In this document: piece by piece, positions 6,679 through 63,630 of the stretch
Layout of the letters: each line of letters starts with the position of its first letter
Position numbering within the stretch: position 1 is the stretch's first letter
DNA from: Flavobacterium cheniae
GTDB lineage: Bacteria; Bacteroidota; Bacteroidia; Flavobacteriales; Flavobacteriaceae
Direction: 5' to 3'
Length of the DNA stretch: 64,000 nt
Assembly: GCF_004363695.1 (NCBI RefSeq)
Contig: NZ_SNZC01000005.1
Span: 62,001 to 126,000 of the forward strand
Notes under the pieces: model-generated
What the model was told of the DNA's origin: nothing
Database searches by the model: none
The model's input: the letters and a program-made list of their open reading frames with translations, nothing else
Made by a program: the position numbers and the translations under genes

Positions 6679-9600
6679 TTATTTTTTAATTACTTTAATT
6701 TCAGTTTGGTTTCCACCTGCGTTCACTTTTACAATATACATTGCAGCAGCTAATTCAGACATGTTTACCTCAACCTCAGTTTGATTTGGTGTAATTTGTT
6801 TCACCAATCTTCCACTTAAGTCATATACGTTAATTGCAGTAATTTCTTCATTATATCTAATTGATAAAATGTCAACAACTGGATTAGGATAAACAGTTAA
6901 AGCATTCATATCAAAAGAAGAAGATCCTAAAGTAGTAACATCAAAACAAGTACTTCTAGAAGTACATCCGTTCAATGTAACATCCACAGCATAACTACCA
7001 ATTGCAGTTGCTGTATATGATTGAGAAGTTGCTCCTCCAATAGGTGTGTATACAGGACCAGCAGCACATGTATACCATTGGTAAGTTGCCCCAGTTTCAG
7101 CAGCAGTTAATACGTCATCAACACGAGAAACTGTAGCATCTGGTAATGCATTTACAGTAACACTTACAGTATTATTTCTAAAACATCCTGTTGCTCCAAT
7201 TGTAGCTGTAGCAGTATAAACTGTTGTGCCAGGAGTTGCAGATTGTACATAAACTGTTGTAGCGTTTGTTCCTGTATATGGAATTGTTGCTCCTGCATCA
7301 GTAAATAAATTAGTTACTGGAGACCAAGTAATATTAGCAGTTTCTAACGTAGAAATTCTAAGGTTTGGTCTTGTTGTAGTAGCTGTAGGAGCTGTTACAT
7401 TTGTACAAACAGTAGCATTATTATCTTGAGATAAATACAAGTTTAACCCTGTAGCCACAACTGTAGATTCAACAGAAATAGAATTCGCAGCAACTCCACC
7501 TCCATTGTTATTATTAAAACAAGTTTCAATTAATAAACTAGATACACCATCCCATGTTAAAGGAGTTGAAAGAGTAAAATTAATATTACCAGTTCCAGTA
7601 CTAGGAGTGTAATTAGTTGGTGCTAAAACAACGTTTGTTGCACCTGGAATAAATGCTGCACCTAAAGTTGTATTAGAAACAAAACCTGCATTAATTGTAA
7701 AGTTATTCAATACTAGAGGAGTTCCTGATAAAGCAACATACCCAATTGAATTGATACTTTGTCCAGCTGCCATACCTAAAGCAGTTAACTCAGCAGGCGT
7801 ATAAAGTGCTTGCATTTTTGAACCACCCCAAAATCCTTTGAAAGGAGTTGATGTAGTATTAGTTGCAACTCCTGAACCCACTTTTCCTACTACTCCTAAA
7901 GTTCCACCTGTAACAGCTAAACTTTGAATTGTGTTAACACAAATTGAAGGTGCCGCTGGAGTAATTGTTACATTAGTTGGTAATGGATTAACATTTACAG
8001 TGAAAGTTGCAGTTGTTGAACATAAAGCTCCAGAAGTCTGAGTAGCTGTTAAAGTATAAGTTGTAGTAATTGTAGGATTGAAAGTCCAACCTAAAATTTC
8101 ATCACCACTTACACCAGTTGCTGGACTCCAAACAAATGTATTGTAATCCCCAGAACCTGCAGTTAAAGTAACTGCACTAGAAGAATCTCCAGAACATATT
8201 GTAGCAGTCGCTGCACTCAATGTTAATGCTGGAGGTGAAGATACAGTTGCTACAACTGGTACTCTTGTTGAAGTACAAGCCGCTTGACCACCAAAAATTA
8301 CATTAAGTCTATTTACAGAAGTTGTACCTGTAGTGGTTGCACCTGTGTAACTATTTACCCATAATACTTTATTATCTGCAGTAGCAGTATAATAAGTTTG
8401 TGAATTATTTATCGCATCAGCACCATCATGAGTTACGTTTACAACTATATTAGACACTCCATCCCACACATACGGAGTAGCAAATGTAATAGTTTGCCAT
8501 CCACTAGCAGTGTGAGTATAAGTAGAAGGTCCATATACCGTAGTATAACCAGTTGTTGCTAAGAATGTAGTATTAGCAAAGTTATTACCTGCTGTTGTAC
8601 CAATTCTAACAGTAAAGTTAGCATTTGTTGCAGCATCACCTAATGAAGCAATATTATATGCCATAGAAGTAATATTACCAGCACTTAATCCAGCAGCTGT
8701 TAATTCTGCAGCTGTATAAATTGTTTGACTCCAATAATTTGGCCATCTGTTACAAAATGCTGTTGGCTGAACTGTAGCACCTGTTAAAGTACTAGCTGTA
8801 CCAATGGTAACAAAACCAGGAGCAGCAGTGGTTGCAGCGGCATAGTAAGTAGTGGTAGCACTAATTGAAGGAGTTGTAAATAAATTACCAGAAGCTAATG
8901 AAGCTCCCCCTGTTGCAGCTGCGAACCAATTAATAGTTGCACCAGCGCTTGGCGTAGCACTTAAATCAACTGTTCCTGTTCCACATCTTGTAGCTGGTAC
9001 AGTTGCTGTTACTTCATTTGCAAAAGTTATTTGCACAGGAGTTGAAGCTGCAGTTGAAGGACCTGTAGCACAAGTAACTTCACACATAAAATATGTAGAC
9101 GCAGTAGGAGTAGTTGAATATGTTGGGTTTGTTGCCGCAGCAATTGGTGAATATGTCACTCCATCTGGAGATGAAAACCATTGATAAGAAACACCCGAAC
9201 CCGTTGTTAAATTTTGTAAACTTAAAGTAACAGAAGTTCCTAAACAAATTGTATTACTTGACGCAATTGTATTACCTGGAGTAGGAACTCCAACACAAGC
9301 GTTAGAATTTGCATAACTTAAGAAACCTGTGTAGTTTGCAGTTAGTACAGGTGTAGTTGATTGAGTTGAAACTCCTGCAACAGCAGTAGCAACCGATCCA
9401 AATGTACTTGTATATTCACCAGCAGCAGATGGCGCTTGAACAGGAATACTTGTTGCTAAAATTCCAGCATCACCTACTCTAACATTAATATCAGTAATTG
9501 TTCCTGACACTAATGGTAATTCCCATCTTCTGTTGGTTGCCATATTTGCAATCGCAGCATTTTGTGTTCCAGTATTAGAATCAAAAGTTTCTGCCTTCAT

Positions 9601-12600
9601 TACGGTTGCAGTGGTAGTAGTTGGTGCAGCCCACACAGGAGCATAAGCTACTTTACCAACAGGGAATAGTAAATAATTTGTATTTGCATTAGCATTAGAA
9701 ATAGTTCTTGCGAAAGGACCTCTAACCATGTTAGTAGCACTTGGAGTACCTGCTAAAGTTCCTCCTGCAGTTGCAGTACCTAATGTTAATAAATTTGTAT
9801 TTGTAGTATTAATGATACCAGATGTCATTGTTAATGTACCACTAACTGATAAAGGTATGTTTAACGTTACACCTGTCGCATTAGTATTATTAACCGTCAA
9901 TGACGTTAAGTTTGCTGTTGGAGCAGCAGCTAAGTTTCTGTAAACCCCTGTACCTCCAATTGTTTGAGCATTTGTAGTTGCAGTTTCAGCACCATTTAAA
10001 TAGTTAGCTAAAAACAATGAAGTTGTAGTGGTAAAAGTACCGTTGTTAACTATATTTCCTGCTACATAAGACGTTCCAAATATTACTTCAGAACTTGGTG
10101 CAATTGTTACATTTCCACTGAAACCTAACGACCAAGCCGTTGTAACTTGTCTATTTGTACCACCTAAAGTGTTTACTTCTAAGTTACCAAATAAAATTCT
10201 ATTAGACCCTACAAAAGTATTTAATCTAAAACCATTAGTAGCATTACCACCAGCATCTGTTGAAACACCATCACCTAATTTAAGTGTATGTGTATTTGGA
10301 ACATTTACGTGTGCTGTACTATTAGTGTAAGCTAATGTATTTGATGCAGTAGCATTCGCATGTGGATCTAAAATAGTTAAAACACCACCTGTCCAGTTAA
10401 TAAATTGTGAATTTAATTGTACGATTGCAACTCCTGAAGCTACTGAATTTGCAGCAACACCACCTTCATTACCATCTACCAAAATATCACCACCACTTTG
10501 ATTAAAAGTTGAAGCAGCATTATGTACCATATTACCATTAACTGCTAATAGACCTCCTGAAACAGTTAAAGTACCACTATTAGCTAAAGTATTGTTATTT
10601 AATGTACAACCCACTGTTAAATCTCCTGCAGAAACTACTAAAGTTCCTCCAGTTGCAATAGTTACATTTCTTGCGACATTACCAGATGTAGTAGACGTAA
10701 CTGTATGACCATTTGCAATTACAGCTGAGTCTGCACATGTTGGCACTACTCCACCATTCCAAGTTGAAGTTGCATTCCAATCTCCTGATGCAATAGAAAC
10801 TACAGGAACATCAGCTGCATTAACACCAAGGTATAAACCTGTAGCAGAAGTTAAATCAGCAGTTGAAACACCACTTCTTTGTCCGTAAGGTGCACTAGAA
10901 GTATTAACGTGAGTACCAGACAATGCCACATTTTCACCTGTAATTCTAGCACCAAGTGCAGTTGTAAAGAAAGCATTTGGAGTAAACATTGTTACCCAGT
11001 TTGAAGCTGCTGCAGGAGTTGTACCATCTAAGGTAACAACGAAATTACCATCCCATTGATTAGTAATTGTATATGCTCCATCAACAATACTTAAACCAGT
11101 TGTAGTAGTTGTAGCGTTATTATAAGTCACCGCATATTTACCACCCGCAGTTGGAGTTGTTCTACCAATGTAGAATATTCTTTGTTCCCCTGTTGGCGAA
11201 TAAAAAGGATATCTTCCTCCAGCACCTGTTGGAATTGCTGTTGGACCTGTAGTAGTATACCCTGTCTGAGTAGCTGTCCACCATCTAGAAAAAGTTCCGT
11301 TTAAGAAACCACCATTAGTAATTGTAAATGTATTACCAGTATCTGCAGCAACTGCCGATCCAATACCAAAAGTAATTTTATTACTATTTAAATTAATTTT
11401 AGCGTTAGCAATATTTAGATTATAAGCTACACTTATACCATCAAAACCCCAGTTGATATTTGGAACTGCTGTTGATGTATTAGTAAAAATTAAATTTCTT
11501 ATTAAATTATTAGCAAAAGTTCCAGATCCAGTAATTGACTGAACCGTACTACCGTTTAATGTTAAGCTTCCTGCAGTTGTTGCTCCAACAGAAAGATCAA
11601 TATTTCCATCGTTTACAATATTACCTGAAACTACGATTGCTTTACCAGTTGTTCCATTAAATACAAGAAATTCAGCACCAGGTTCAAGAGTTAAATTACC
11701 ATTCACATTAAATGTTGTTGGCGTTGTGCCAAACTCTAAAGATCCTTGAACTGTTAAATTATTAATTGCTGAACCAGCTACATCAATTGTTACTGTATGA
11801 GCTGCCACAGTTGCGTTGTCCGCACCCGTAGGCACAGCATTTGCATCCCAAGTAGCAGGATTACTCCAGTTACCATTAGCAATAGAAATAAATACTCCTG
11901 GTGCTTGAGAAACCAAAGAAATCTCATCTAAAGCAGCTGGTGGATTAACTATATCCGAAATATCACTTTTCCATTGAAAAATTAATCTATAAGTACCTGG
12001 TGCAGCTGAAAAAACAATTGTTTCCGTATTCCAACTTGCACTACTTAACTTGTACATTCCACTTACAGCGCCAGGACCACTTAACTGTGTAGCACCTGTA
12101 ACAGCAGCTGTTGAAGAAGGTGTAAAAGAAGTTGGCGACCAAAAAACCTTCATGTTATCCCAATCTGAGGCTACTGTACCTTCGCCACCAACTTTCCATT
12201 TGAAAGATAAAGTTACTTTATTCTCACCCGCAGGAATTGTCACATCTCTGTAAACATGATTAAATACACTAAGCTGAGAATAAGTCCATGCCGCACCGCC
12301 ATTAGCAGAAACGTATGCACAATTAACACCATTTGACGAAACCGGAACATTCCCAACCTGCCATGTATCTGTAGCAGGGTTTACAGTTGTCCACCCATTA
12401 GCTGCAAAAGTTGCGCCATTTTCAAAACCTCCATCACCAGTTGGTGATATCAAAGTCGTTTGACCTTGTACAAAAACAAAAGAAAACAACATCAAAAACA
12501 CAGTCATAAAGGAAACTAAAGTTCCTTTTTTTCCTGTTAAGGATGTCGATTCTTGTTTTTTTGAATTTGCTGAGCCTTTTAAAAGACAGGTCTCAACCGA

Positions 12601-12618
12601 ATCGTAATTGTTTATCAT
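6679..12618 (-). CDS. Giant type IX-secreted surface/adhesin-like protein (1979 aa)
   Basis: An unusually long N-region (about 33 residues) precedes the hydrophobic signal segment (residues 34-52, ending FVFVQGQ). A jelly-roll-like domain follows (about 57-240). Residues 245-1000 carry beta-helix-like stretches in which NGNWSNPATWDANAVPTGAD and GDWNATSTWNGGVVPTCAD repeat. Next come Ig-like, Cys-containing units (SNTICLGTSVTLSLQN, ATICSGDSSSAVTL). Two copies of a module of about 180 residues occupy about 1265-1450 and 1565-1760. The last 73 residues (LTVYPNPVVD to IKVIKK) form a type A T9SS sorting domain that directs export and attachment. Composition is Thr/Ala/Asn-rich and poor in charge. 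The ligand is unknown. A paired operator-like repeat lies upstream. Confidence 0.9.
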   Translation of the reverse strand: MINNYDSVETCLLKGSANSKKQESTSLTGKKGTLVSFMTVFLMLFSFVFVQGQTTLISPTGDGGFENGATFAANGWTTVNPATDTWQVGNVPVSSNGVNCAYVSANGGAAWTYSQLSVFNHVYRDVTIPAGENKVTLSFKWKVGGEGTVASDWDNMKVFWSPTSFTPSSTAAVTGATQLSGPGAVSGMYKLSSASWNTETIVFSAAPGTYRLIFQWKSDISDIVNPPAALDEISLVSQAPGVFISIANGNWSNPATWDANAVPTGADNATVAAHTVTIDVAGSAINNLTVQGSLEFGTTPTTFNVNGNLTLEPGAEFLVFNGTTGKAIVVSGNIVNDGNIDLSVGATTAGSLTLNGSTVQSITGSGTFANNLIRNLIFTNTSTAVPNINWGFDGISVAYNLNIANAKINLNSNKITFGIGSAVAADTGNTFTITNGGFLNGTFSRWWTATQTGYTTTGPTAIPTGAGGRYPFYSPTGEQRIFYIGRTTPTAGGKYAVTYNNATTTTTGLSIVDGAYTITNQWDGNFVVTLDGTTPAAASNWVTMFTPNAFFTTALGARITGENVALSGTHVNTSSAPYGQRSGVSTADLTSATGLYLGVNAADVPVVSIASGDWNATSTWNGGVVPTCADSAVIANGHTVTSTTSGNVARNVTIATGGTLVVSAGDLTVGCTLNNNTLANSGTLTVSGGLLAVNGNMVHNAASTFNQSGGDILVDGNEGGVAANSVASGVAIVQLNSQFINWTGGVLTILDPHANATASNTLAYTNSTAHVNVPNTHTLKLGDGVSTDAGGNATNGFRLNTFVGSNRILFGNLEVNTLGGTNRQVTTAWSLGFSGNVTIAPSSEVIFGTSYVAGNIVNNGTFTTTTSLFLANYLNGAETATTNAQTIGGTGVYRNLAAAPTANLTSLTVNNTNATGVTLNIPLSVSGTLTMTSGIINTTNTNLLTLGTATAGGTLAGTPSATNMVRGPFARTISNANANTNYLLFPVGKVAYAPVWAAPTTTTATVMKAETFDSNTGTQNAAIANMATNRRWELPLVSGTITDINVRVGDAGILATSIPVQAPSAAGEYTSTFGSVATAVAGVSTQSTTPVLTANYTGFLSYANSNACVGVPTPGNTIASSNTICLGTSVTLSLQNLTTGSGVSYQWFSSPDGVTYSPIAAATNPTYSTTPTASTYFMCEVTCATGPSTAASTPVQITFANEVTATVPATRCGTGTVDLSATPSAGATINWFAAATGGASLASGNLFTTPSISATTTYYAAATTAAPGFVTIGTASTLTGATVQPTAFCNRWPNYWSQTIYTAAELTAAGLSAGNITSMAYNIASLGDAATNANFTVRIGTTAGNNFANTTFLATTGYTTVYGPSTYTHTASGWQTITFATPYVWDGVSNIVVNVTHDGADAINNSQTYYTATADNKVLWVNSYTGATTTGTTSVNRLNVIFGGQAACTSTRVPVVATVSSPPALTLSAATATICSGDSSSAVTLTAGSGDYNTFVWSPATGVSGDEILGWTFNPTITTTYTLTATQTSGALCSTTATFTVNVNPLPTNVTITPAAPSICVNTIQSLAVTGGTLGVVGKVGSGVATNTTSTPFKGFWGGSKMQALYTPAELTALGMAAGQSINSIGYVALSGTPLVLNNFTINAGFVSNTTLGAAFIPGATNVVLAPTNYTPSTGTGNINFTLSTPLTWDGVSSLLIETCFNNNNGGGVAANSISVESTVVATGLNLYLSQDNNATVCTNVTAPTATTTRPNLRISTLETANITWSPVTNLFTDAGATIPYTGTNATTVYVQSATPGTTVYTATATIGATGCFRNNTVSVTVNALPDATVSRVDDVLTAAETGATYQWYTCAAGPVYTPIGGATSQSYTATAIGSYAVDVTLNGCTSRSTCFDVTTLGSSSFDMNALTVYPNPVVDILSIRYNEEITAINVYDLSGRLVKQITPNQTEVEVNMSELAAAMYIVKVNAGGNQTEIKVIKK

Positions 12619-12654: not shown

Positions 12655-12715
12655 ACTTCATTTACAAAAAGCTATACAATTTCTATAAAAAAACAACAAC
12701 TAAGACAAATCACCG

Positions 12716-12744
12716 ATGAAAGGTAATATTAATCGATGAAAGGC
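12716..12744 (-). promoter_or_regulatory. Paired direct repeat, candidate LytTR-type operator
   Basis: On the minus strand, GCCTTTCAT (12744-12736) and ACCTTTCAT (12724-12716) lie 20 bp apart. The first continues as CGATT and the second as CGGTG. They point toward the gene starting at 12618 and end about 62 bases upstream of its -7 element. A matching pair precedes the other giant gene at 56896. Confidence 0.5.
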
Positions 12745-13275: not shown

Positions 13276-16200
13276 TTAATAGTTGAACTCTTCTTTAGCA
13301 GCCATTAGTTCGTTGTATTCTTCTTTAGAACCTACTATTGTATTGTCGTAGTCTCTCATACCTGTACCGGCTGGTATTCTGTGACCTACAATAACATTTT
13401 CTTTTAATCCTTCTAATGTATCAATTTTACCTGCTACTGCAGCTTCGTTTAACACTTTAGTTGTTTCCTGGAACGATGCAGCAGAAATGAATGATTTCGT
13501 TTGTAACGATGCTCTCGTAATACCTTGAAGTACTGGAGTAGCTGTAGCCGTAATAACATCACGAGCTACTACTAAGTTTTTATCATTACGTTTTAATAAC
13601 GAATTTTCGTCTCTTAACTGACGTGGAGAAATAATTTGACCTGGTTTTAAATTCTCAGAATCACCTGCTTCTTCCACTACTTTCATTCCGTATAATTTAT
13701 CGTTTTCTACAAGGAAATCTCTCGTATGTGCTAATTGATCTTCTAAGAATAATGTATCTCCTGGATCTACAATTCTTACTTTACGCATCATTTGACGAAT
13801 TACCACTTCAAAGTGTTTATCGTTGATTTTTACCCCTTGTAAACGGTATACTTCTTGAATTTCATTTACTAAATACTGTTGAACAGCAGATGGCCCTTGA
13901 ATTCTTAAAATATCTTCTGGTGTAATTGCTCCGTCTGAAAGTGGAGTTCCCGCTTTTACGTAATCATTTTCTTGAACTAAGATTTGGTTCGAAAGTTTTA
14001 CTAAGTATTTCTTCACTTCACCAAATTTAGACTCGATAGCGATTTCTCGGTTACCTCTCTTAATTTTTCCGAATGTTACAACTCCATCAATTTCAGAAAC
14101 TACTGCAGGATTTGAAGGATTACGAGCTTCTAACAACTCTGTAATTCTTGGTAAACCTCCTGTAATATCTCCTGCTTTTGAAGAACGACGTGGAATCTTA
14201 ACTAAAATCTTACCAGCTTTAATTTTTTCTCCGTCATCTACCATAAGGTGAGCCCCTACTGGTAAGTTATAAGAACGAATCAATTCACCATCTTTACCAT
14301 AAATTAATAAAGTAGGAACTAATTTTTTATTTCTACCTTCAGAGATTACTTTTTCTTGGAAACCAGTTTGCTCATCGATTTCAACTAAGAACGATTGTCC
14401 TTGTTCTAAATCTTCGTAAGCAATTTTTCCTGTAAATTCAGAAACAATAACTCCATTATATGGATCCCATTTACAAATTGTAGTACCTTTTTCAACAACG
14501 TCTCCGTCTTTAACAAAAATACTTGAACCGTAAGGAATATAGTGTGTATTTAATAAAATACCTGTTTTAGCATCTACTAATTTTAACTCAGTTGAACGAG
14601 AAATTACGATATCAACAGTATTTCCTTCAGAATCTTCACCCTTAACTGTTTTTAAATCTTCAATTTCTAATTTACCTGCAAAACGAGCAACAATACTAGA
14701 TTCTTCAGAAATACCTCCAGCAACCCCTCCAACGTGGAACGTACGAAGTGTTAACTGTGTACCTGGCTCACCAATTGATTGCGCTGCAATAACTCCAACT
14801 GCTTCACCTTTCTGAGTCATCTTACCAGTAGCTAAGTTTCTACCGTAACATTTCGCACAAATACCTTTTGTAGCTTCACATGTTAATGGCGAACGTACTT
14901 CTACTTTTTCAATTGGAGATGCTTCAATTCTCTTAACATCAGCTTCTGTAATTTGTTCTCCAGCATAAACTAAAATTTCATTATCTAGAGGATTAATTAC
15001 ATTTTGTAACGCTACACGTCCTAAAATTCTTTCTCCTAATGATTCAACGATTTCCTCATTTTTCTTTAAAGGAGAAACTACAATTCCTCTTAACGTACCA
15101 CAATCAACAGAGTTTACAATAACATCTTGAGATACATCATGTAATCTACGCGTTAAGTAACCTGCATCGGCAGTTTTAAGAGCCGTATCCGCAAGACCTT
15201 TACGAGCACCGTGAGTAGAAATAAAGTACTCAAGAATCGAAAGACCTTCCTTAAAGTTAGATAAAATCGGGTTTTCAATAATTTCACCACCACCAGCAGT
15301 TGATTTTTTAGGCTTAGCCATCAAACCACGCATACCAGTTAACTGACGAATCTGTTCTTTAGAACCCCTTGCTCCAGAATCAAGCATCATATATACCGAG
15401 TTGAAACCTTGTTGGTCTTCACGGATATTTTTCATTGCCAACTCTGTTAATTGAGCATTAGCAGAAGTCCAGATATCAATAACTTGGTTGTAACGTTCGT
15501 TATTAGTAATAAGACCCATACTATAGTTCATCGAAATTCCATCAACTTGCTCACGAGCATCAGCGATTAACTGCGTTTTTTGTTCTGGAATTCTAATATC
15601 ACCTAATGAGAAAGATAATCCTCCACGGAATGCGAACTTATACCCCATATCTTTCATGTTATCCAAGAAAGCTGCTGTTGTAGGAACGTCAGTAACCGCT
15701 AAGATTTTACCAATAATATCACGAAGTGATTTCTTAGTTAATACCTCATTAATATATCCTGCAGCTTCAGGTACTACTTCGTTAAATAATACTCTACCTG
15801 CTGTAGTTTGAATAATTTTATATACTAATTCACCTTCTTCATTAAAATCTCTTGCTCTAATTTTCACTCTAGCATTTAATTCTAATTTTCCTTCATTCAA
15901 AGCAATATTTACTTCTTCAGCAGAATAGAAAGTTAAACCTTCTCCTAAAATTTTCATTTCTGGAGTAGACAAACGCTCTTTGGTCATATAATAAAGACCA
16001 AGTACCATGTCTTGAGAAGGTACAGTAATTGGGGCACCATTTGCAGGATTCAAGATATTGTGAGAAGCCAACATTAATAATTGTGCCTCTAAAATAGCTT
16101 CTGGTCCTAATGGTAAGTGAACCGCCATCTGGTCACCATCGAAATCGGCGTTGAATGCCGTACAAACTAATGGGTGTAACTGGATTGCTTTTCCTTCAAT

Positions 16201-54596: not shown

Positions 54597-56435
54597 TTAT
54601 TTTCTAGAAATAATTACTTTTTTACTTACATCTAAATTGTCTCTTGTTTTTGTTTTTACAACATAAACACCATCACTTAAAGCTGAAGTTGAAAACTCAT
54701 ATGAAACTGCTTTTCCTAAATTAGTCTTATTCATTACTAATTTTCCAGTAACATCATACATCATTAAAGCTGTGATATCTTTATTTAAAGTATTATAAAT
54801 GGTTAACATTCCGTTTTCGTTATTTTGAAAAACAGTAAAAGCATCAGCAAAATCAGTTGGGTTATCCAACACCACATCAGTGTTTTTGAATGTAATTTCA
54901 TAACGCGATCTATTATCACCTGCTGGCATTACCATATCAAAAATACCATTCTTAATATCATAGTAAATTCCTGTTTGCTTGTCGTGTAAGTATACCGGCT
55001 GGTTATCATCAAAGTCTACCACATCTTTCACTTGAAGTTTAAAGTTTGTGCTTGCAGTACATCTGAAACCTACAGGTATTCTTTTATCAATATCAAATTG
55101 AACCGCAGTTGCTACATATTCATGAGGCATATCAGTTAATACATAATAAAATTCTGCTGTTTCACCAGATGGCGAACGTCCGTCAGCACCATAATCAAAA
55201 CCATCTGTAGCTGTATCTAAAAACGCAATAGTTGTTGGGCGAACACCACCATTATTGTACATAGCATGAATTCTAATGTAAGGAGCTGTACCTTTTCTAA
55301 TTTGAGTGTAATCTGTTCCTGCTACGTTAGGTATTTCAGGAAAAAATTCAGAATTTGGATCATATACATCGGCTGAAGCAACTTCAGCATTTCTTGCAAA
55401 TTGCGACTGATTTACTACTCCTTCTTTTACGAAAACACGAAATGCATTTTGCATAGTAACACTACCTGCAGCAGTTCCCATTACCATAAATCCTTGTCCA
55501 ACTGGACTGAATCTTCTTTGAAAAATTGTACCAGCTCCAGCAGGTACTCCTTGATTTCCAAGATTATCATACGTCCAAAAAGCAGCAGGAGTATAAATTC
55601 CAGTTCCTGGATTATAAATTCCGTATCCTCCTTGGTATTGGTTTAAAACATGCGTATTAACCACTACTTGTTCCCAAAAATAAGCTTGACCATTAATTAC
55701 CGCAGCATTTGATGGGTGTAATAAATAAGCATTTAAATCGATTGCACTTGGATAGGGATTACCAACTAACGTAAAATTACCTGCAGATACAGGGATTGAC
55801 ATATTTCCATCATTAGGTTTTCCTCTAAAATCATAACGTTGTCTGCTTCCAGAATTATTTTGAACTCCCTCTATTGCTTGAGCAACAGTAGCATCTGTAC
55901 CAGAAGTCCCTTTCATGGTAAAACCTTCACCTGCGTTAATTGTAGATCCAGCACCTACATACGTCCATTGCGCATATGCATTTGAAGTTATGAAGCGGTA
56001 AATCCATCTTGGAGAAATCGCTAAAGGGCTCGATGTACCATTAAGATTACTGGTTGGTAAAACGATTGCTGGCGTGCTCGTTGTTAATCCTGTTGGACGA
56101 TTCAACATTGCAATACCAAAAGTTTCATTTCCAACTGCAGCCGAAGCATTACCTACTGGAGAACACCAATAATTGTATTGAAAATTATTCGTCGTACCTT
56201 CCTGAAAAACAGAAAGTTTACCAGCACCTGTATTGGCACCAGCACCAGCAGTACCTTGTAATAATTGTGAATTATTCCTAAGAAAGAAATTTCCATTATT
56301 TTGTAAATTCACATCTTGTCTTACGTACATGAACTGATCGTTAACAAATACGTAACTATTTGGGCTAACATACATTTGAGAGAATGCTGTTAACGAACCC
56401 AAAAAGCCTAAAGTGGAAAGTATAATTCTTTTCAT
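54597..56435 (-). CDS. Type IX-secreted protein (612 aa) with a NPYPSA module
   Basis: 612 residues from the ATG at 56435. The signal peptide ends LTAFSQ (about residue 20). Residues about 90-350 hold the module NYWCSPVGN ... LVGNPYPSAIDLNAYLL ... GQGFMVMG, shared with the divergent giant protein. The last 85 residues (FTVFQNNENGMLTIYN to VSKKVIISRK) are a C-terminal sorting domain for type IX export. No catalytic motif is seen; it is probably a surface or matrix protein. A good -7 element (TATCTTTG, 56470-56463) lies upstream. Confidence 0.85.
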   Translation of the reverse strand: MKRIILSTLGFLGSLTAFSQMYVSPNSYVFVNDQFMYVRQDVNLQNNGNFFLRNNSQLLQGTAGAGANTGAGKLSVFQEGTTNNFQYNYWCSPVGNASAAVGNETFGIAMLNRPTGLTTSTPAIVLPTSNLNGTSSPLAISPRWIYRFITSNAYAQWTYVGAGSTINAGEGFTMKGTSGTDATVAQAIEGVQNNSGSRQRYDFRGKPNDGNMSIPVSAGNFTLVGNPYPSAIDLNAYLLHPSNAAVINGQAYFWEQVVVNTHVLNQYQGGYGIYNPGTGIYTPAAFWTYDNLGNQGVPAGAGTIFQRRFSPVGQGFMVMGTAAGSVTMQNAFRVFVKEGVVNQSQFARNAEVASADVYDPNSEFFPEIPNVAGTDYTQIRKGTAPYIRIHAMYNNGGVRPTTIAFLDTATDGFDYGADGRSPSGETAEFYYVLTDMPHEYVATAVQFDIDKRIPVGFRCTASTNFKLQVKDVVDFDDNQPVYLHDKQTGIYYDIKNGIFDMVMPAGDNRSRYEITFKNTDVVLDNPTDFADAFTVFQNNENGMLTIYNTLNKDITALMMYDVTGKLVMNKTNLGKAVSYEFSTSALSDGVYVVKTKTRDNLDVSKKVIISRK

Positions 56436-56665
56436 AATCCTGGTTTTTAATATATTACTTGACAAAGATAAGTATTAAGTATTTATTTTTTGTTAAAAAA
56501 AACATCTTTTAAACGATAAAAAACGCATTTCATCTAAATTAATCGCAATTAAACTTGAAAAAAGTAGTTTATTACTTAAAATTTTAAGAAAAACTACCTG
56601 ACAAAAAGCAATAAAACCAGACCAAATTGCAAAAAAATTGAATTAAAAAAATCAATTCAAACAAT

Positions 56666-56695
56666 GCATTTCATCGATTTTTTTATACATTTTAT
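56666..56695 (+). promoter_or_regulatory. Paired direct repeat, candidate LytTR-type operator
   Basis: GCATTTCAT (56666-56674) and ACATTTTAT (56687-56695), both continuing as CGATT, with a 21-bp period. They point toward the giant gene, 86 bases upstream of its -7 element. The motif matches the pair upstream of 12618 and resembles the repeat I know for E. coli YpdB. Confidence 0.55.
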
Positions 56696-56780
56696 CGATT
56701 TTTTTGCTGTTTTTTACCAACAATGCAAGGTTTTCACAAAACCACCTTTAATTGTGATGTAAAATATTCTATTTTATTGC

Positions 56781-56788
56781 TATATTTG
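56781..56788 (+). promoter_or_regulatory. -7 element of the giant type IX-secreted gene
   Basis: TATATTTG, 107 bases before the ATG at 56896, giving a long leader. The -33 TTG is at a non-standard distance (about 26 bases), consistent with activator dependence. Confidence 0.5.
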
Positions 56789-56895: not shown

Positions 56896-59800
56896 ATGAA
56901 ACAGAATTACAATTTATTAACCCATTCTAATGCACTAACACTTGCATGGAATAACTTTTTTCTGAAAGGTAAAACACAAACAATCAGCTTATTTGTGATA
57001 TTTTTTACACTTTTTGGATTTTCTGATGCTTTTGGACAATTTCCAGGAAATGACAATGTCGCTGGAGCTGCTAAAATTTTTAACGTTCCTGCTGGAGTAA
57101 CCTCAGTAACAGCTTCTGCATGGGGTGCTGGTGGTGGTGGTGGTGGCTCAAGCACAAACGGAGCTGGTGGTAACGGTGGTGGTGGTGGTGGTGCTACTAC
57201 TAGAGTTATTGCAGTAACTGGAGGAACAACTACTTTTACATACACCGTTGGTGGTGCTGGTACTGCTGGAGCCGCTGGGGCAACGGGAGGTAACGGTGGG
57301 TTATCAAACATAACTTCATTAGCACCTGCTACTAACATGATTGCAAATGGAGGTACTGGAGGTAGAGCAAATGCATTAGCATTGAACCTTCCTGTTAATA
57401 GCGCAGGAGGTACTGCTTCTGGCGGAACAACAAACAACACAGGAAGTAATGGTATCTTGGGCGGAGCTTCGGGTGGAAACGGAGGTAACTCTGCTACTGT
57501 TATTGGAATATTTGGTGCTGGTGGTAATGGTCAAACAAATAACCCAGGATTACCAGGAACAATTCCAGGTGGCGGTGGTGGTGGTGGTGAACGCGGAGGC
57601 GGTAACCAACCAGGTGGCGCAGGAGCAAATGGCCAAGTATCTTTTCAATATATTGGAGTAACAAACATTACTCCTAATCCAGTTTGTGTAGGTAGTACAA
57701 TCACAATAACTGGATTTAATTTTAACCTTGGAGCAACAACAATTACCGTAAACGGAACTGCTTGTACAAGTGTAACTGTAGTGAATGCAACAACTATAAC
57801 AGCTGTTATCGCAGCTGGAACAACTTCAGGAACAGTAGTTATAACAAACCCTAACGGAACTAATAATGGACAAACTTTAACTGTTAATCCTTTACCAGCA
57901 GCTATAGCTGGTGGTTCAGCAACTGTTTGTACAGGCGCTTCTACACCAGCATTTACAAGTGCAACAGGTGGAGGAACTTGGTCTGTAATTCCTGGAACAG
58001 GAACTGCTAGTATTTCAGTAGGCGGTGTTTTAACAGGCACAACTGCAGGTACAGTTACCGTAAGATATACATTACCAACAGGATGTTTCGTGAATTCTGG
58101 AACTATAACAATAGAACAAACCCCTGGCGCAATAGCAGGTGGTTCAGCAACAGTATGTAATGGAGCATCAACTCCTGCCTTTACAAATCCAAATGCAGGC
58201 GGAACATGGTCTGTACTAAACGGAACAGGTACGGCAACTATAACTGGTGGAGGAGTTCTTACAGGAACTTCACCTGGTACTGTAACCGTAAGATATACTA
58301 TTGGGACATGTACTCCTGCTACATTCAATGTAACGGTAGTTGCACCCCCACCAGCAATTGGCGGTGGCGCTATTACAGTTTGTACTGGTGCTAATACGCC
58401 AGCTTTTACTAACGCAACTGGAGGAGGAACATGGTCTATTATTAACGGTACAGGTTCTGCTACAATAAACCCTGCTACTGGTGTAGCAACAGGTGTTACA
58501 GCAGGAGATGTAACCGTAGTTTATACGGTTTCAGGATGTAGTACAACTACAAACTTAACCGTAACAACCGTACCGGTAGTAGTTACTGGCCCAACACCAA
58601 CAAATGCCGCTACTGGAATTTGTTATTCTGGTGTAGGAGCAATTTCAAGTATTTCTTGGGGAGCTTCAAGCGGCGCTTCTTCTTACGATGTTTATTTTGG
58701 AGCAGGAAGTGTTCCTGGAACAGTTACTGCTAACGTAGCTACAAATTCATATAACACAGGAGCTTTAGCAGCAAGTACAACATACTTTTGGAGAGTGGTT
58801 GCTATAAATGCTTGTGGAAACGCAGTTACTTCTGCAACTTTCTCTTTTACAACAGCTGCAGCGCCATGTGTACCTTCTTATTGTGTACCAACTTTCACAA
58901 GTGGAGTTGAACCAATTAGTAATGTAACTTTTAATACAATTAACAATACAAGTGCAAATGTTTGTAGTGCTGGTTTACAATATGAAGACTTCTCTGGAAC
59001 AAGCACAACAGTTATTAAATCTTCTATTTATAACCTATCTGTAACAGGAAACACTTGTGGAAATTTCACAAACAACATAAGAGCTTATGTTGACTGGAAT
59101 ATTGATGGTGATTTCCTTGACGCTGGAGAGAGTTTCGATATAGGAACCATAACTAACTCTGCAACCGGAATAGCAACACTACCTATTACAATTCCAGCTG
59201 GTGCCACAACAGGTGTTGCCAGAATGCGTATTATGAAAAGATTTGGTGGCTATCCAACTTCAGCTTGTCAAACTGGTGCTGGTTTTGGACAAGCAGAAGA
59301 TTATAGTTTAAATATCATTGAGCCTGCAAATTGTACTGGAATGCCTTTAGCGGGTACAGCAACACCAGCAACTCAAACAATAACTACAGGAACTTCTACA
59401 AATATATCTGTAGTTGGTTATTCTACAAATTTAGGAATCACGTTCCAATGGCAACAAGCAACAGCTCCGGCTGGACCTTATACAAATGTTGTTGGCGGAA
59501 GTGGAGCAACAACTGCGACCTATACAACACCAAACTTAGCGACACCTACCTATTATATATGTGTTGTTACTTGTACAAATAGTAGCTTAAGTGCTAACTC
59601 AACTGTAGCCGAAGTTTTAGTTGCTAATCAAGTTTTAGTTAGCGGCCTTGGCACGAACAATGTAAATTGTGGTACCAATGTAGTATTAAAAGACCATGCA
59701 GGTGATGCAAACTATGGAAATGCTAGAGATGATTGGTCTGCATTAAATGTTACTTCAACTGCTGTTGTAAACATCAGCGGAACCTATGATACTCAAAGTG

Positions 59801-62800
59801 GTAGTGATGGTATCATCTTATATGACGGTGTAGGAATTTTAGGAACACAATTAGCAGTTTACACAGGAACTGGAACTATTAATTACACAGGAACACCTGG
59901 GCAAACCATAACAGTAAGATTTGTATCAAACGGTTCTGTTGTAGCATCAGGTTTTGTACTAAATGTAACTTACAGCGGAAATTGTAATATTCCTTGTGTG
60001 GCACCTACTGCATTACCTACTGCATTATCTTTAACAGCAACAGGTACTGTAATTTCAGGAGCATTTACACATGCGGTTCCACAACCTGACAACTACCTTG
60101 TAGTTGTTAGTACTAACCCAGTTGCCCCTACTCCTGCAAACGGTACAAGTTATGCAGTTGGAGCTACAGTGGGTGCTGGTTATACTGTAGTTGCAAATGG
60201 AACTAATAATTCTTTTTCTGCATCAGGACTATTAAACTCAACTACTTATTACATATACGTATTCTCATTTAATAGATTATGTATTGGAGGCCCTTTATAT
60301 TTAGGAAACTTAAACGGAAGCATTACTACAACTGCTACTGATCCTTACTGTATAGCCACATCTAACGTAAGTACACGATATATTGAAAACATATTCACAG
60401 TTGGAGCAATTACTAACTTAAATAATATGGGAACTGGTAGAGCTCCAAGTGGCTATGCCGACTATACTGCTTCTACCCCAGTTACTCAAATTCCAGGAGG
60501 TGGTGTTGCAATCGATTATTTACTAAGAGTTTCAAGACAGTTTATTAGCATGTGGGTTGACTGGAACAATGATGGAGACTTCGTAGATGGTGGAGAGGCT
60601 GTTTATACCTCTACTGCCGTTCAAACCATTGAAGGAACAGGAGGATTTGTAGTTCCGCCAGCACAACCATTAGGAACGTACAGAATAAGAATCAGAACAC
60701 ACGAAACAGTATCTGCAATTAATCCTTGTACCTCGCCTTATCCAACAGGTGAAACAGAGGATTACAGATTAGTTGTAGTTGCAGACTGTTTAGCAAAACC
60801 AGTTGCTCTATACGATGGATCACGATGTGATAACGGAACAGTTGTTTTGGGAGTAGAAGGTTCTGCTGGAGTAACTGAATTTAGATTTTACGATTCATTA
60901 TATGGTGGTAACTTAATAGGAACGCAAGCAGCTGTACCAGGAACAACTAACTGGACAACTCCTTTCTTAACTGCAACTACTAAATATTATGTTACTGCTT
61001 TTAACGGAAGTTGTGAATCATGGTATAGAGAAGAAATTATAGCAACTGTAAATCCTACAGCTAACATTGTAGTTACACCTTCTGTTCCAGAAGTGTGTGG
61101 TGAAAATAATGTTGTTCAAATTGACGCAGGTGGTGACGAAGTAATTGACTACTTAGTTAATGAAGAATTTGAAGGTGGTTTGGGAACAATGGTAAGATTC
61201 AACGTAGCAGGTCAAGCAAACGTTGACACGCAATGGACAGGAAGAACAAGTCCGTATGTTCCAGTTGGATCTGTATGGAAACCAGCCCTTACATCAAGAG
61301 CTATTGGAAATGGATTTGCTTTAGCTAATTCCGATTTTACAGCACCAAACCCTAAAGACACACAACTTAGAACAGCTGTATTAGACGCATCTGCTTACAG
61401 TGATTTAACATTAAGCTTTAGACATCATTTCTCTTATTATCCAGGAGAGCCTGTACAATTTGGTTATGTTGATGTTTCAACAGATGGTGGGGCTTCTTGG
61501 CCAACAACTTTAGCAACTTATACGTCAAACCAAGGATTTGCTGGGCAATTCTCGACCGTAAATATAGATTTATCTGCATTTGCCGGACAACCAAGTTTAA
61601 TGGTTCGCTTTAGATATTACCTGGCTGGAGGATCAGCATGGTGTAATGGCTGGGCTATTGATGATGTACAATTATATGGTACGCGTCCATTAAACACAAC
61701 ATTTACATGGACAGGTGGAACAGTTGATGCATTTATCGACCCAGCTTGTTCAACACCTTACGTAGCACAAGCAGTATCAACTGTGTATGTTAGACCTACG
61801 GCTTTACAGTTAGCTTCAACTTCATGGTCGTTTACAGCAAATGCAACACTTGGTAATGGATGTCCAATATCAGAATTTATTGTAATTAATAATAAAACTA
61901 AACTTTGGAAGGGTAATGTTGACAACAATTGGTACAACGCAAACAACTGGGAACCAGTAGGTGTACCAGATGCAAATACTTGTGTATTTATATACCCAGG
62001 AACTCCAGCTATTAATACTTCAAATATTAATACTGCAACTAATGATGGTTTTGCAAAAACCGTAACTGTTAGACCTTCTGGAGTACTTACAATACATCCA
62101 GGTAATGATTTAACTGTAACTGATAACGTTACTGTTGATGCTGGAGGAACATTCAATATTGAAAACTCAGGAAGTTTAATTCAAGTTAACAATTTAGCTA
62201 ATAGTGGTAACATTTCAATGAGAAGAAATGTCAACTTAAGAAAACTAGATTATGTGTATTGGTCTTCACCAGTAGCAAATTTCCAAGTAAGCGCAGTATC
62301 GCCTGGTACATCGGCTGGATATAGATTCAAATGGATTCCAACAATTGGAACTAATCTTAATGGTTGGGGTAACTGGACAGCAGCTAACGAAGCAATGGTA
62401 GCCGGAAAAGGTTACATTGTAAGAGGCCCTAATACGTACACTACAGTTCTTCAAAACTTTACCGCTAACTTTGTAGGTGTTCCTAATAATGGTATTATCA
62501 ATATGCCTATAAGCAGAGGTATTTATGATGGTGCTGATTATGCAACAGGAGCATCAGCAACTCTAGCTACAAGAGATGATGACAACTGGAATTTAATTGG
62601 TAACCCATATCCTTCAGCTGTAAATGCTAATTTATTCTTAGCTACTAATACAAACATTGCAGGATTCATCAAGTATTGGACACATGGTACTTTACCATCA
62701 GCGGTTACATCTGATCCGTTTTACAACAATTATGCTCAAAACTATACTGTTGGAGATTATGTAACTTACAATGCTACTGGAGCTAATCCAGCAATTGGAA

Positions 62801-63630
62801 ATGGAAATATTGCTGCAGGTCAAGGATTCTTTGTATTAATGAACCACAGTTCTGCCGCTACAACCGAAAATGTAGTTTTCAATAATAGCATGAGAAGAAA
62901 TGATTACAGAAATGATATTTTCTACAGAAACGCGAATGTAACCGACGCGGGTAGTGAAGAAAAACACAGAATTTGGTTAAATTTAATTACACCTTCTTCA
63001 ACTTCAAGCACAACTTTGATTGGTTATATAGCTGGTGCAACTAATGAACTAGACCGTATGTTTGATGCACCTGCTTTAGATGTAAAAACGAATTTTGAAT
63101 TGTATTCTTTCTCAAATGCAGACAAATTAAATATTCAAGGTAAGGCATTGCCATTTAATAATGAAGATTTAATACCATTAGGGGTTAAAATCTCACAAAA
63201 TGGAATACACACTTTAGGAATTTCAACAGTTGATGGTCTATTTACAGATACTGCTCAAAACATTTATTTAGAAGATAAAACATTAGGAATAACTCACGAT
63301 TTACGTGTTGCTCCGTATAGTTTTACTGGAGCAGTAGGTAACTACGAAAATCGTTTTGTTTTGAAATTCAATAATGCGACTTTAGGAAATGAAGACTTTA
63401 CTGCTAATGCAGTAACTGTTTATACAAATGAATTTATCAACATTACTGCAACGAATCAAACTATTAAATCTGTTAAAATTTATGATTTATTAGGACGCGT
63501 TTTAGGAACATTTGATAATGTAAATTCAGAAACATTTACTAGCAAAAACATTGCAAAAACTCAAACTGCTTTATTAGTAGAAGTTAAACTTGACAATGGT
63601 GCAACCAAAACTTACAAAGTGATTTTCTAA
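56896..63630 (+). CDS. Giant multidomain type IX-secreted protein (2244 aa)
   Basis: Start ATG at 56896, with a long signal peptide (residues 1-48, ending SDAFGQ). In order: a Gly-rich domain (about 55-200, AWGAGGGGGGSS); an IPT/TIG-like domain (256-330); three 76-residue tandem repeats (334-561); an Fn3-like domain (565-654); GEVED domain 1 (VDWNIDGDFLDAGESFD, 662-808); an Ig-like unit; a CUB-like domain (912-1032); an Fn3-like domain; GEVED domain 2 (VDWNNDGDFVDGGEAV, 1149-1295); a MAM/jelly-roll-like domain (about 1419-1598); a beta-helix-like NGNW-type unit; and a YWSSPV/NPYPSA module (1785-2020). The C-terminal 75 residues resemble a type C T9SS sorting signal (VKIYDLLGRVLGTF ... LLVEVKLDNG). 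No catalytic site is evident; it is likely an adhesin or matrix protein. Confidence 0.88.
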   Translation: MKQNYNLLTHSNALTLAWNNFFLKGKTQTISLFVIFFTLFGFSDAFGQFPGNDNVAGAAKIFNVPAGVTSVTASAWGAGGGGGGSSTNGAGGNGGGGGGATTRVIAVTGGTTTFTYTVGGAGTAGAAGATGGNGGLSNITSLAPATNMIANGGTGGRANALALNLPVNSAGGTASGGTTNNTGSNGILGGASGGNGGNSATVIGIFGAGGNGQTNNPGLPGTIPGGGGGGGERGGGNQPGGAGANGQVSFQYIGVTNITPNPVCVGSTITITGFNFNLGATTITVNGTACTSVTVVNATTITAVIAAGTTSGTVVITNPNGTNNGQTLTVNPLPAAIAGGSATVCTGASTPAFTSATGGGTWSVIPGTGTASISVGGVLTGTTAGTVTVRYTLPTGCFVNSGTITIEQTPGAIAGGSATVCNGASTPAFTNPNAGGTWSVLNGTGTATITGGGVLTGTSPGTVTVRYTIGTCTPATFNVTVVAPPPAIGGGAITVCTGANTPAFTNATGGGTWSIINGTGSATINPATGVATGVTAGDVTVVYTVSGCSTTTNLTVTTVPVVVTGPTPTNAATGICYSGVGAISSISWGASSGASSYDVYFGAGSVPGTVTANVATNSYNTGALAASTTYFWRVVAINACGNAVTSATFSFTTAAAPCVPSYCVPTFTSGVEPISNVTFNTINNTSANVCSAGLQYEDFSGTSTTVIKSSIYNLSVTGNTCGNFTNNIRAYVDWNIDGDFLDAGESFDIGTITNSATGIATLPITIPAGATTGVARMRIMKRFGGYPTSACQTGAGFGQAEDYSLNIIEPANCTGMPLAGTATPATQTITTGTSTNISVVGYSTNLGITFQWQQATAPAGPYTNVVGGSGATTATYTTPNLATPTYYICVVTCTNSSLSANSTVAEVLVANQVLVSGLGTNNVNCGTNVVLKDHAGDANYGNARDDWSALNVTSTAVVNISGTYDTQSGSDGIILYDGVGILGTQLAVYTGTGTINYTGTPGQTITVRFVSNGSVVASGFVLNVTYSGNCNIPCVAPTALPTALSLTATGTVISGAFTHAVPQPDNYLVVVSTNPVAPTPANGTSYAVGATVGAGYTVVANGTNNSFSASGLLNSTTYYIYVFSFNRLCIGGPLYLGNLNGSITTTATDPYCIATSNVSTRYIENIFTVGAITNLNNMGTGRAPSGYADYTASTPVTQIPGGGVAIDYLLRVSRQFISMWVDWNNDGDFVDGGEAVYTSTAVQTIEGTGGFVVPPAQPLGTYRIRIRTHETVSAINPCTSPYPTGETEDYRLVVVADCLAKPVALYDGSRCDNGTVVLGVEGSAGVTEFRFYDSLYGGNLIGTQAAVPGTTNWTTPFLTATTKYYVTAFNGSCESWYREEIIATVNPTANIVVTPSVPEVCGENNVVQIDAGGDEVIDYLVNEEFEGGLGTMVRFNVAGQANVDTQWTGRTSPYVPVGSVWKPALTSRAIGNGFALANSDFTAPNPKDTQLRTAVLDASAYSDLTLSFRHHFSYYPGEPVQFGYVDVSTDGGASWPTTLATYTSNQGFAGQFSTVNIDLSAFAGQPSLMVRFRYYLAGGSAWCNGWAIDDVQLYGTRPLNTTFTWTGGTVDAFIDPACSTPYVAQAVSTVYVRPTALQLASTSWSFTANATLGNGCPISEFIVINNKTKLWKGNVDNNWYNANNWEPVGVPDANTCVFIYPGTPAINTSNINTATNDGFAKTVTVRPSGVLTIHPGNDLTVTDNVTVDAGGTFNIENSGSLIQVNNLANSGNISMRRNVNLRKLDYVYWSSPVANFQVSAVSPGTSAGYRFKWIPTIGTNLNGWGNWTAANEAMVAGKGYIVRGPNTYTTVLQNFTANFVGVPNNGIINMPISRGIYDGADYATGASATLATRDDDNWNLIGNPYPSAVNANLFLATNTNIAGFIKYWTHGTLPSAVTSDPFYNNYAQNYTVGDYVTYNATGANPAIGNGNIAAGQGFFVLMNHSSAATTENVVFNNSMRRNDYRNDIFYRNANVTDAGSEEKHRIWLNLITPSSTSSTTLIGYIAGATNELDRMFDAPALDVKTNFELYSFSNADKLNIQGKALPFNNEDLIPLGVKISQNGIHTLGISTVDGLFTDTAQNIYLEDKTLGITHDLRVAPYSFTGAVGNYENRFVLKFNNATLGNEDFTANAVTVYTNEFINITATNQTIKSVKIYDLLGRVLGTFDNVNSETFTSKNIAKTQTALLVEVKLDNGATKTYKVIF
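57895..58578 (+). repeat. Three tandem 228-bp coding repeats
   Basis: Units start at 57895, 58123 and 58351, each exactly 76 codons. Conserved words: ATVC.GA.TPAFT, GGTWS, GTGTA.I, GVLTGT and GTVTVRYT. The length is constant but the sequence has diverged, so the repeats are older than a recent slip duplication. Confidence 0.85.

Follow-up and report, generated by a model that had tools for sequence, protein, structure and literature searches.

A paired, probably LytTR-type operator upstream of type IX cargo and other surface-protein genes in the Flavobacteriaceae, and an orphan LytTR protein as its putative reader

The window, a stretch of 64,000 bp (G000:C5:62001-126000) from the 2.74-Mb, 18-contig genome of Flavobacterium cheniae, contains two giant genes that are each preceded by a paired motif. 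The first, on the plus strand at 56896..63630, encodes a glycine-rich protein with GEVED and Ig-like domains. The length of 2244 residues given for it in the initial annotation holds when counted from the ATG at 56896; the list of open reading frames, which begins at an earlier TTG, gives 2262 aa. As to the type IX secretion (by the type IX secretion system, T9SS) that had been ascribed to this protein, its very C-terminus matches the type C sorting model NF033708 over the full length, but at 34.2 bits it does not reach the cut-off of 40. Upstream of it lies a divergent gene on the minus strand (54597..56435, with its ATG at 56435 and its listed start at the TTG of 56465) whose product carries a type A T9SS sorting domain (PF18962, 35.3 bits, cut-off 27). 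The second giant gene, on the minus strand at 6679..12618, encodes 1979 aa, and its C-terminal type A sorting domain scores above the curated cut-off (TIGR04183, 48.2 vs 23 bits; PF18962, 47.1 bits).

Upstream of the 56896 giant, GCATTTCATCGATT from 56666 and ACATTTTATCGATT from 56687 form a plus-strand direct repeat with a period of 21 bp that is aimed at the gene, just as first described. The whole paired operator, GCATTTCATCGAT and ACATTTTATCGAT, occupies 56666..56699 and ends 197 bp before the ATG. The motif that was said to recur before the second giant was also found there, as an intergenic pair on the minus strand at 12712..12744 with a period of 20 (GCCTTTCATCGAT and ACCTTTCATCGGT, with CCTTTCATCG halves). 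According to the available part of PMC4847170, a LytTR site is built from a repeat of 9-11 nt that occurs twice around a spacer of 11-13 nt, and such sites have no common consensus. The LytTR layout proposed for the window fits this description, with cores ATTTCATCG and ATTTTATCG separated by 12 bases at 56666 and by 11 at 12712. A weaker third pair with a period of 20 lies on the plus strand at 56505..56537, in the same intergenic region as the 56666 pair and nearer to the divergent cargo gene. The further single copy previously noted at 56525 does exist, but it is one half of this pair and not single. The first half, CTTTTAAACGAT, is the same as halves found upstream of the LytTR gene in other genomes, and the pair as a whole received no confirmation from other genomes. 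When the window was ranked with a half-site matrix, the three pairs scored 40.3 (56666), 32.1 (12712) and 17.3 (56505), and the next candidate 6.7. The matrix was made from 49 training sites which include the 56666 pair but neither of the other two, so that the rank of the 56666 pair itself is partly circular. Taken alone the half-sites are unremarkable, with 12 matches in the window at no more than one mismatch against 9 expected.

The consensus of the operator is TGCATTTYATCGAT, arranged head-to-tail and repeated every 20-21 bp. The exact 30-base pair pattern has 2 matches in the F. cheniae genome versus 0 for the reversed control, and 21 versus 4 in 150 genomes of the genus (own included). 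At least 5 of these 21 matches are inside genes, and therefore some of them are due to chance. A search of the own genome allowing two mismatches gave 25 matches against 16 for the reversed control, mostly intragenic, and was dropped in favour of a profile. This profile was built on 12 intergenic sites taken from these pattern searches, whose consensus is TGCATTTCATCGATTTTTTT-N4-ATTTTATCGAT with Y as the eighth base of each half, and was searched in 299 genomes of the genus; 60 of the best hits outside the own genome were fetched as loci. The 56666-56699 pair, itself among the 12 training sites, is the top match of the whole F. cheniae genome at 39.0 bits. The site is also conserved upstream of orthologous metalloproteases in several species. 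We regard the motif as genuine and as part of a predicted regulon that is spread across the Flavobacteriaceae.

In the F. cheniae genome, sites precede both giants, a metalloprotease gene (site at C8:12316) and an outer-membrane protein gene (C6:68050), as well as a CAP lipoprotein gene (C1:570424-570471, with a -7 box 9 bp behind). A weak site (E 0.036) is found before an OmpA-family gene at C2:195014, and the apparent counterpart of this gene in another locus (L138) has a site too. A strong pair is present at only 3 cargo genes of this genome, compared with 40 PF18962 hits (39 above the cut-off). Across the fetched loci, 14 of the 37 complete genes downstream of a site encode a type A T9SS sorting domain, versus 22 of the 437 other complete genes (Fisher p 3e-8). 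The initial annotation had named as one refutation that the pair is no commoner upstream of T9SS-cargo genes than elsewhere, and these counts speak against it. They derive from 60 sites, of which 8 were missed by the ungapped matrix and 7 had no downstream frame (in some cases owing to masked stretches), leaving 45 sites with 37 complete genes and 8 cut by contig ends; one site was counted twice (L092 and L106). The sites are not independent, since many of the downstream genes are orthologues. When the orthologous metalloproteases (7 of the 14) are removed, 7/30 remain (p 0.001). Type C giants do not enter the count unless they also pass the type A model; in the three examined (the window gene, L112 and L115) the NF033708 match is nearly or fully full length and below the cut-off.

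The proposal that the operator serves T9SS-cargo genes thus stands as an enrichment, but cargo is not the sole class of target, and other surface products are found as well. Family searches identified a reprolysin-type metalloprotease with a sorting domain (L082, and L002 in the own genome with the domain at C8:9291), CAP-domain lipoproteins (L098), an L,D-transpeptidase (L110) and a small outer-membrane protein (L024, own genome); further CAP-domain lipoproteins were recognised by sequence likeness (L108, L129 and L141). At L098 two CAP-lipoprotein genes stand in tandem; their products agree in predicted N- and C-terminal sequence, and both genes have an operator copy to themselves. In three genomes (L120, L126 and L128) the site precedes a glycosyltransferase operon whose first gene encodes a CheY-like receiver protein. 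The gene order is this single-domain protein, a membrane protein, the glycosyltransferase and two more genes, and it is likely that this is a surface-polysaccharide operon. In one genome (L095, G240) the downstream gene encodes GldK of the T9SS ring (TIGR03525, 605 bits vs 350). The operator there, at 14859-14897, lies upstream of gldK and the T9SS core genes that follow it, and in this lineage the T9SS machine itself may be under the control of the operator. In two other genera (L332 and L336) the operator precedes a gene for a cysteine-bearing protein of about 76 aa, judged by eye to be possibly iron-sulfur binding, which means that the targets outside Flavobacterium differ.

The genome of F. 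cheniae has five LytTR genes over the cut-off of PF04397. The genomic neighbourhood does not name the regulator, since a model made from four of the five own LytTR proteins (L029 left out) picked out only one gene near an operator (L141, two genes off) among the 784 open frames of the 60 loci. After a PF04397 search of 20 genomes (10 with a strong motif, 10 with a weak one or none), LytTR genes were taken from 6 genomes of either kind and grouped with the five own ones (13 genomes including the own; 60 of 61 loci yielded a frame). Only two types, L026 and L027, are present in every one of the 7 motif genomes. Of the 6 remaining genomes, 4 have the L026 type and 2 the L027 type. The L026 type is dispensable, having no match at 1e-50 in four complete motif genomes (G005, G024, G030 and G092). 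L027 is a LytTR response regulator with a receiver and a LytTR domain. Its gene lies outside the window between rpsF and priA (C1:816158-816856), and it is an orphan, as no kinase gene adjoins it at the locus. Elsewhere in this genome, another LytTR regulator and its kinase (L028, G000:C2:286957-290196) immediately precede the gene of a large cadherin-like secreted protein, and this could be a second cargo-linked LytTR system.

Of the 299 genomes of the genus, those at least 90% complete were kept, and G121 was also left out. At E < 1e-3 the motif is present in 131 of 228 genomes with the L027 type and in 0 of 28 without it (Fisher 3e-10, kinship ignored). The E-values are optimistic in AT-rich DNA, as complete genus genomes lacking the LytTR still reach about 1e-3, and the floor was chosen after the data were seen; floors from 1e-3 to 1e-6 all agree in direction (p 3e-10 to 0.03). 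The motif occurs in the absence of the L027 type in six assemblies that are 74-89% complete (G003, G036, G125, G134, G211 and G257), and 97 of the 228 genomes have the L027 type with no motif at this floor. A diverged L026 is carried by 21 of the 28 L027-less genomes, which suggests that these 21 are probably one clade; the remaining 7 (counted by hand) are all motif-free (p 0.003). The family was searched with a 49-site profile in 249 genomes of 235 genera. With 37 genomes below 90% completeness set aside, along with 5 of unlisted completeness that had no LytTR match and no motif listed, the motif was found at E < 1e-3 in 122 of 172 genomes with an L027-level match and in 3 of 35 without (G314, G339 and G491), kinship again being ignored. 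Fifty of the 172 have the LytTR and no motif at this floor, and four of the set-aside genomes (G353, G363, G377 and G386, 81-88% complete) have the motif and no LytTR. Both are missing from some genomes of over 4 Mb (G122, G157 and G267), and a small genome alone is therefore not the cause.

A similar pair is found before the L027-type gene itself. In other genera it usually lies 43-48 bp before the start, and in 27 of the 29 best-matching family loci it scores above the 99th percentile of 200 shuffles. In Flavobacterium it mostly lies about 60 bp before the start in the opposite orientation, pointing away from the gene, and mostly has a period of 20. There it beats all 100 shuffles in 12 of 16 readable strong-motif loci versus 4 of 18 readable weak-motif loci (scores differ, p 0.001); six of the 40 loci were unreadable by the start pattern and were dropped (L277, L278, L280, L281, L302 and L312). 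Among the LytTR genes of the 13 grouped genomes, a pair scoring above 5 precedes 4 of 9 of the L027 type, 0 of 11 of the L026 type and 1 of 40 others. No such site was found in the own genome or in 16 close relatives, including F. proteolyticum, F. lacisediminis and F. aquaticum (one of 15 loci, L219, was not read in one set). With the site at 27 of 29 family loci and none here, self-control of the L027-type gene looks conserved in the family and lost in F. cheniae. The initial assignment of the operator to the LytTR class is supported by these comparisons, in that the motif goes together with a single LytTR orthogroup, whose own gene is preceded by a similar pair in much of the family. It is most likely the rpsF-priA LytTR that would bind the pair.

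The operator could instead be real and read by another LytTR paralogue or by an AraC-type regulator, with the rpsF-priA LytTR co-occurring by ancestry and its gene being just another target. AraC-type proteins, with subunits in tandem, likewise recognise direct repeats at a spacing of about 21 bp. The association counts, which ignore kinship, leave room for this, as do the few genomes with the motif that lack the rpsF-priA LytTR and the scope of the comparison of candidate regulators, which was LytTR genes. However, of the LytTR types of the 13 grouped genomes none but L026 and L027 is present in all 7 motif genomes, L026 is missing from four motif genomes, and the site precedes L027-type genes and hardly any other LytTR genes. 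We consider a different reader unlikely, while giving it more weight than any other alternative.

The flavobacterial -7 box is TAnnTTTG, as given in the available part of PMC9723704. At a score of at least 33 there are 52 sites, and in 22 of them such a box begins 19 or 20 bp past the second ATCG, where shuffling gave a mean of 0.1 and a maximum of 2. Split by target, this spacing is found in 12 of the 13 metalloprotease sites and in 10 of the 39 others. At 14 further sites the first box is at 10 (five sites), 22, 29, 30, 32 (two), 42 (two), 82 or 83 bp, and most of these distances differ from 19.5 by whole helical turns (p 0.0001 for unique distances). In the other 16 there is no box within 110 bp. 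A wider set, with 53 of 62 sites usable, has a box no more than 45 bp behind the site in 35 cases, versus 3 of 60 equal-length stretches in front. The 83-bp case is the promoter of the 56896 giant, where a putative box, TATATTTG, is found on the plus strand at 56781..56788 (box motif from the same part of PMC9723704), and the 82-bp case (L115) is that of another genome's giant, which is similar at its N-terminus. No TAnnTTTG box was seen close behind the 12712-12744 pair when the sequence was read by eye. Since the 19-20 bp spacing and the helical phase are the layout of an activator contacting the polymerase, they suggest that the operator serves an activator. A LytTR protein that binds the pair and chiefly represses would be in keeping with the 10-bp distance, at which the site almost touches the -7 box (CAP lipoproteins), but the commonest position at 19-20 bp and the phasing out to 83 bp fit polymerase contact better, and we rate repression as slightly less probable still than a different reader. 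That the pairs are chance or low-complexity AT-rich repeats, as the near-expected frequency of half-sites and the mostly intragenic two-mismatch matches in the own genome might hint, is highly improbable and, for the strong pairs if not for 56505-56537, already contradicted by the greater number of exact pairs than of reversed-control matches, the conservation across species, the fixed promoter spacing and the cargo enrichment.

Drawing on the site and its conservation, the promoter-box spacing, the targets, the co-occurrence and the own-gene site in relatives, all of which are read from sequence, we think it probable that the operator is an activator site, read by the rpsF-priA orphan LytTR and governing secreted and surface products. 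A LytTR dimer would sit on two direct TGCATTTYATCGAT half-sites on one face of the DNA, the period of 20-21 bp being two turns. It would contact RNA polymerase, mostly from a position that covers the -33 region and lies just ahead of the -7 box TAnnTTTG, or else from whole helical turns further away, as at the 56896 giant. The regulon would take in part of the T9SS cargo together with CAP lipoproteins and outer-membrane proteins, as well as gldK in a single genome. In much of the family the L027-type regulator seems to control its own gene, too. That this protein binds the pair, that it activates rather than represses and that phosphorylation controls it is what we infer; phosphorylation is likely since its receiver domain scores over the Pfam cut-off. 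A broader proposal, on which we are evenly divided, is that most Flavobacteriaceae have a surface regulon with a single orphan LytTR, retained at rpsF-priA, as its ancestral activator. This protein would switch on type IX giants and other surface proteins in varying sets, T9SS parts in some lineages, and its own gene, by way of promoters tuned by helical phase.

To our knowledge, little is known about how the expression of type IX cargo genes is controlled in flavobacteria. No report of the operator, of an L027-type LytTR as its reader or of a link to flavobacterial T9SS cargo was found in searches confined to open PMC text. LytTR operators are already known as a kind, and what appears to be new here is a flavobacterial motif with an unusually wide predicted regulon. 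Now that the operator is defined, a candidate regulator named and the targets listed, the question of a cargo switch can be put directly to the test in a laboratory species, and any Flavobacteriaceae genome can be scanned for the site.

The YpdA/YpdB pair is a LytS/LytTR-type system, and the YpdB operator repeats with a period of 21 bp. At PyhjX of Escherichia coli the YpdB operator is a direct repeat of GGCATTTCAT, as given in the available part of PMC4847170, and the present operator resembles it in being a direct repeat with nearly the same core, GCATTTCAT. It differs from it in that the repeat extends to ATCGAT, that the candidate regulator is an orphan encoded between rpsF and priA, and that the predicted targets are secreted and surface proteins in the Flavobacteriaceae. 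The PorY-PorX-SigP system of Porphyromonas gingivalis likewise ties transcription control to the T9SS, but it acts on the genes of T9SS components via an ECF sigma factor, and the available part of PMC4800418 mentions no LytTR operator. The SM1-SM6 motifs of Flavobacterium psychrophilum, from the study that is also the source of the TAnnTTTG box (PMC9723704), similarly concern transcription control, including that of the sprB adhesin operon; unlike the present site they are sigma motifs and not an activator operator, and TTTCATCG is absent from the main text of that source. LytTR operators in general, as described in the available part of PMC4847170, are like the present one in repeat length and gap, the cores here being 20-21 bp apart, but whereas the known ones lack a shared consensus, here the same letters recur across the family, in which about 235 genera were searched.
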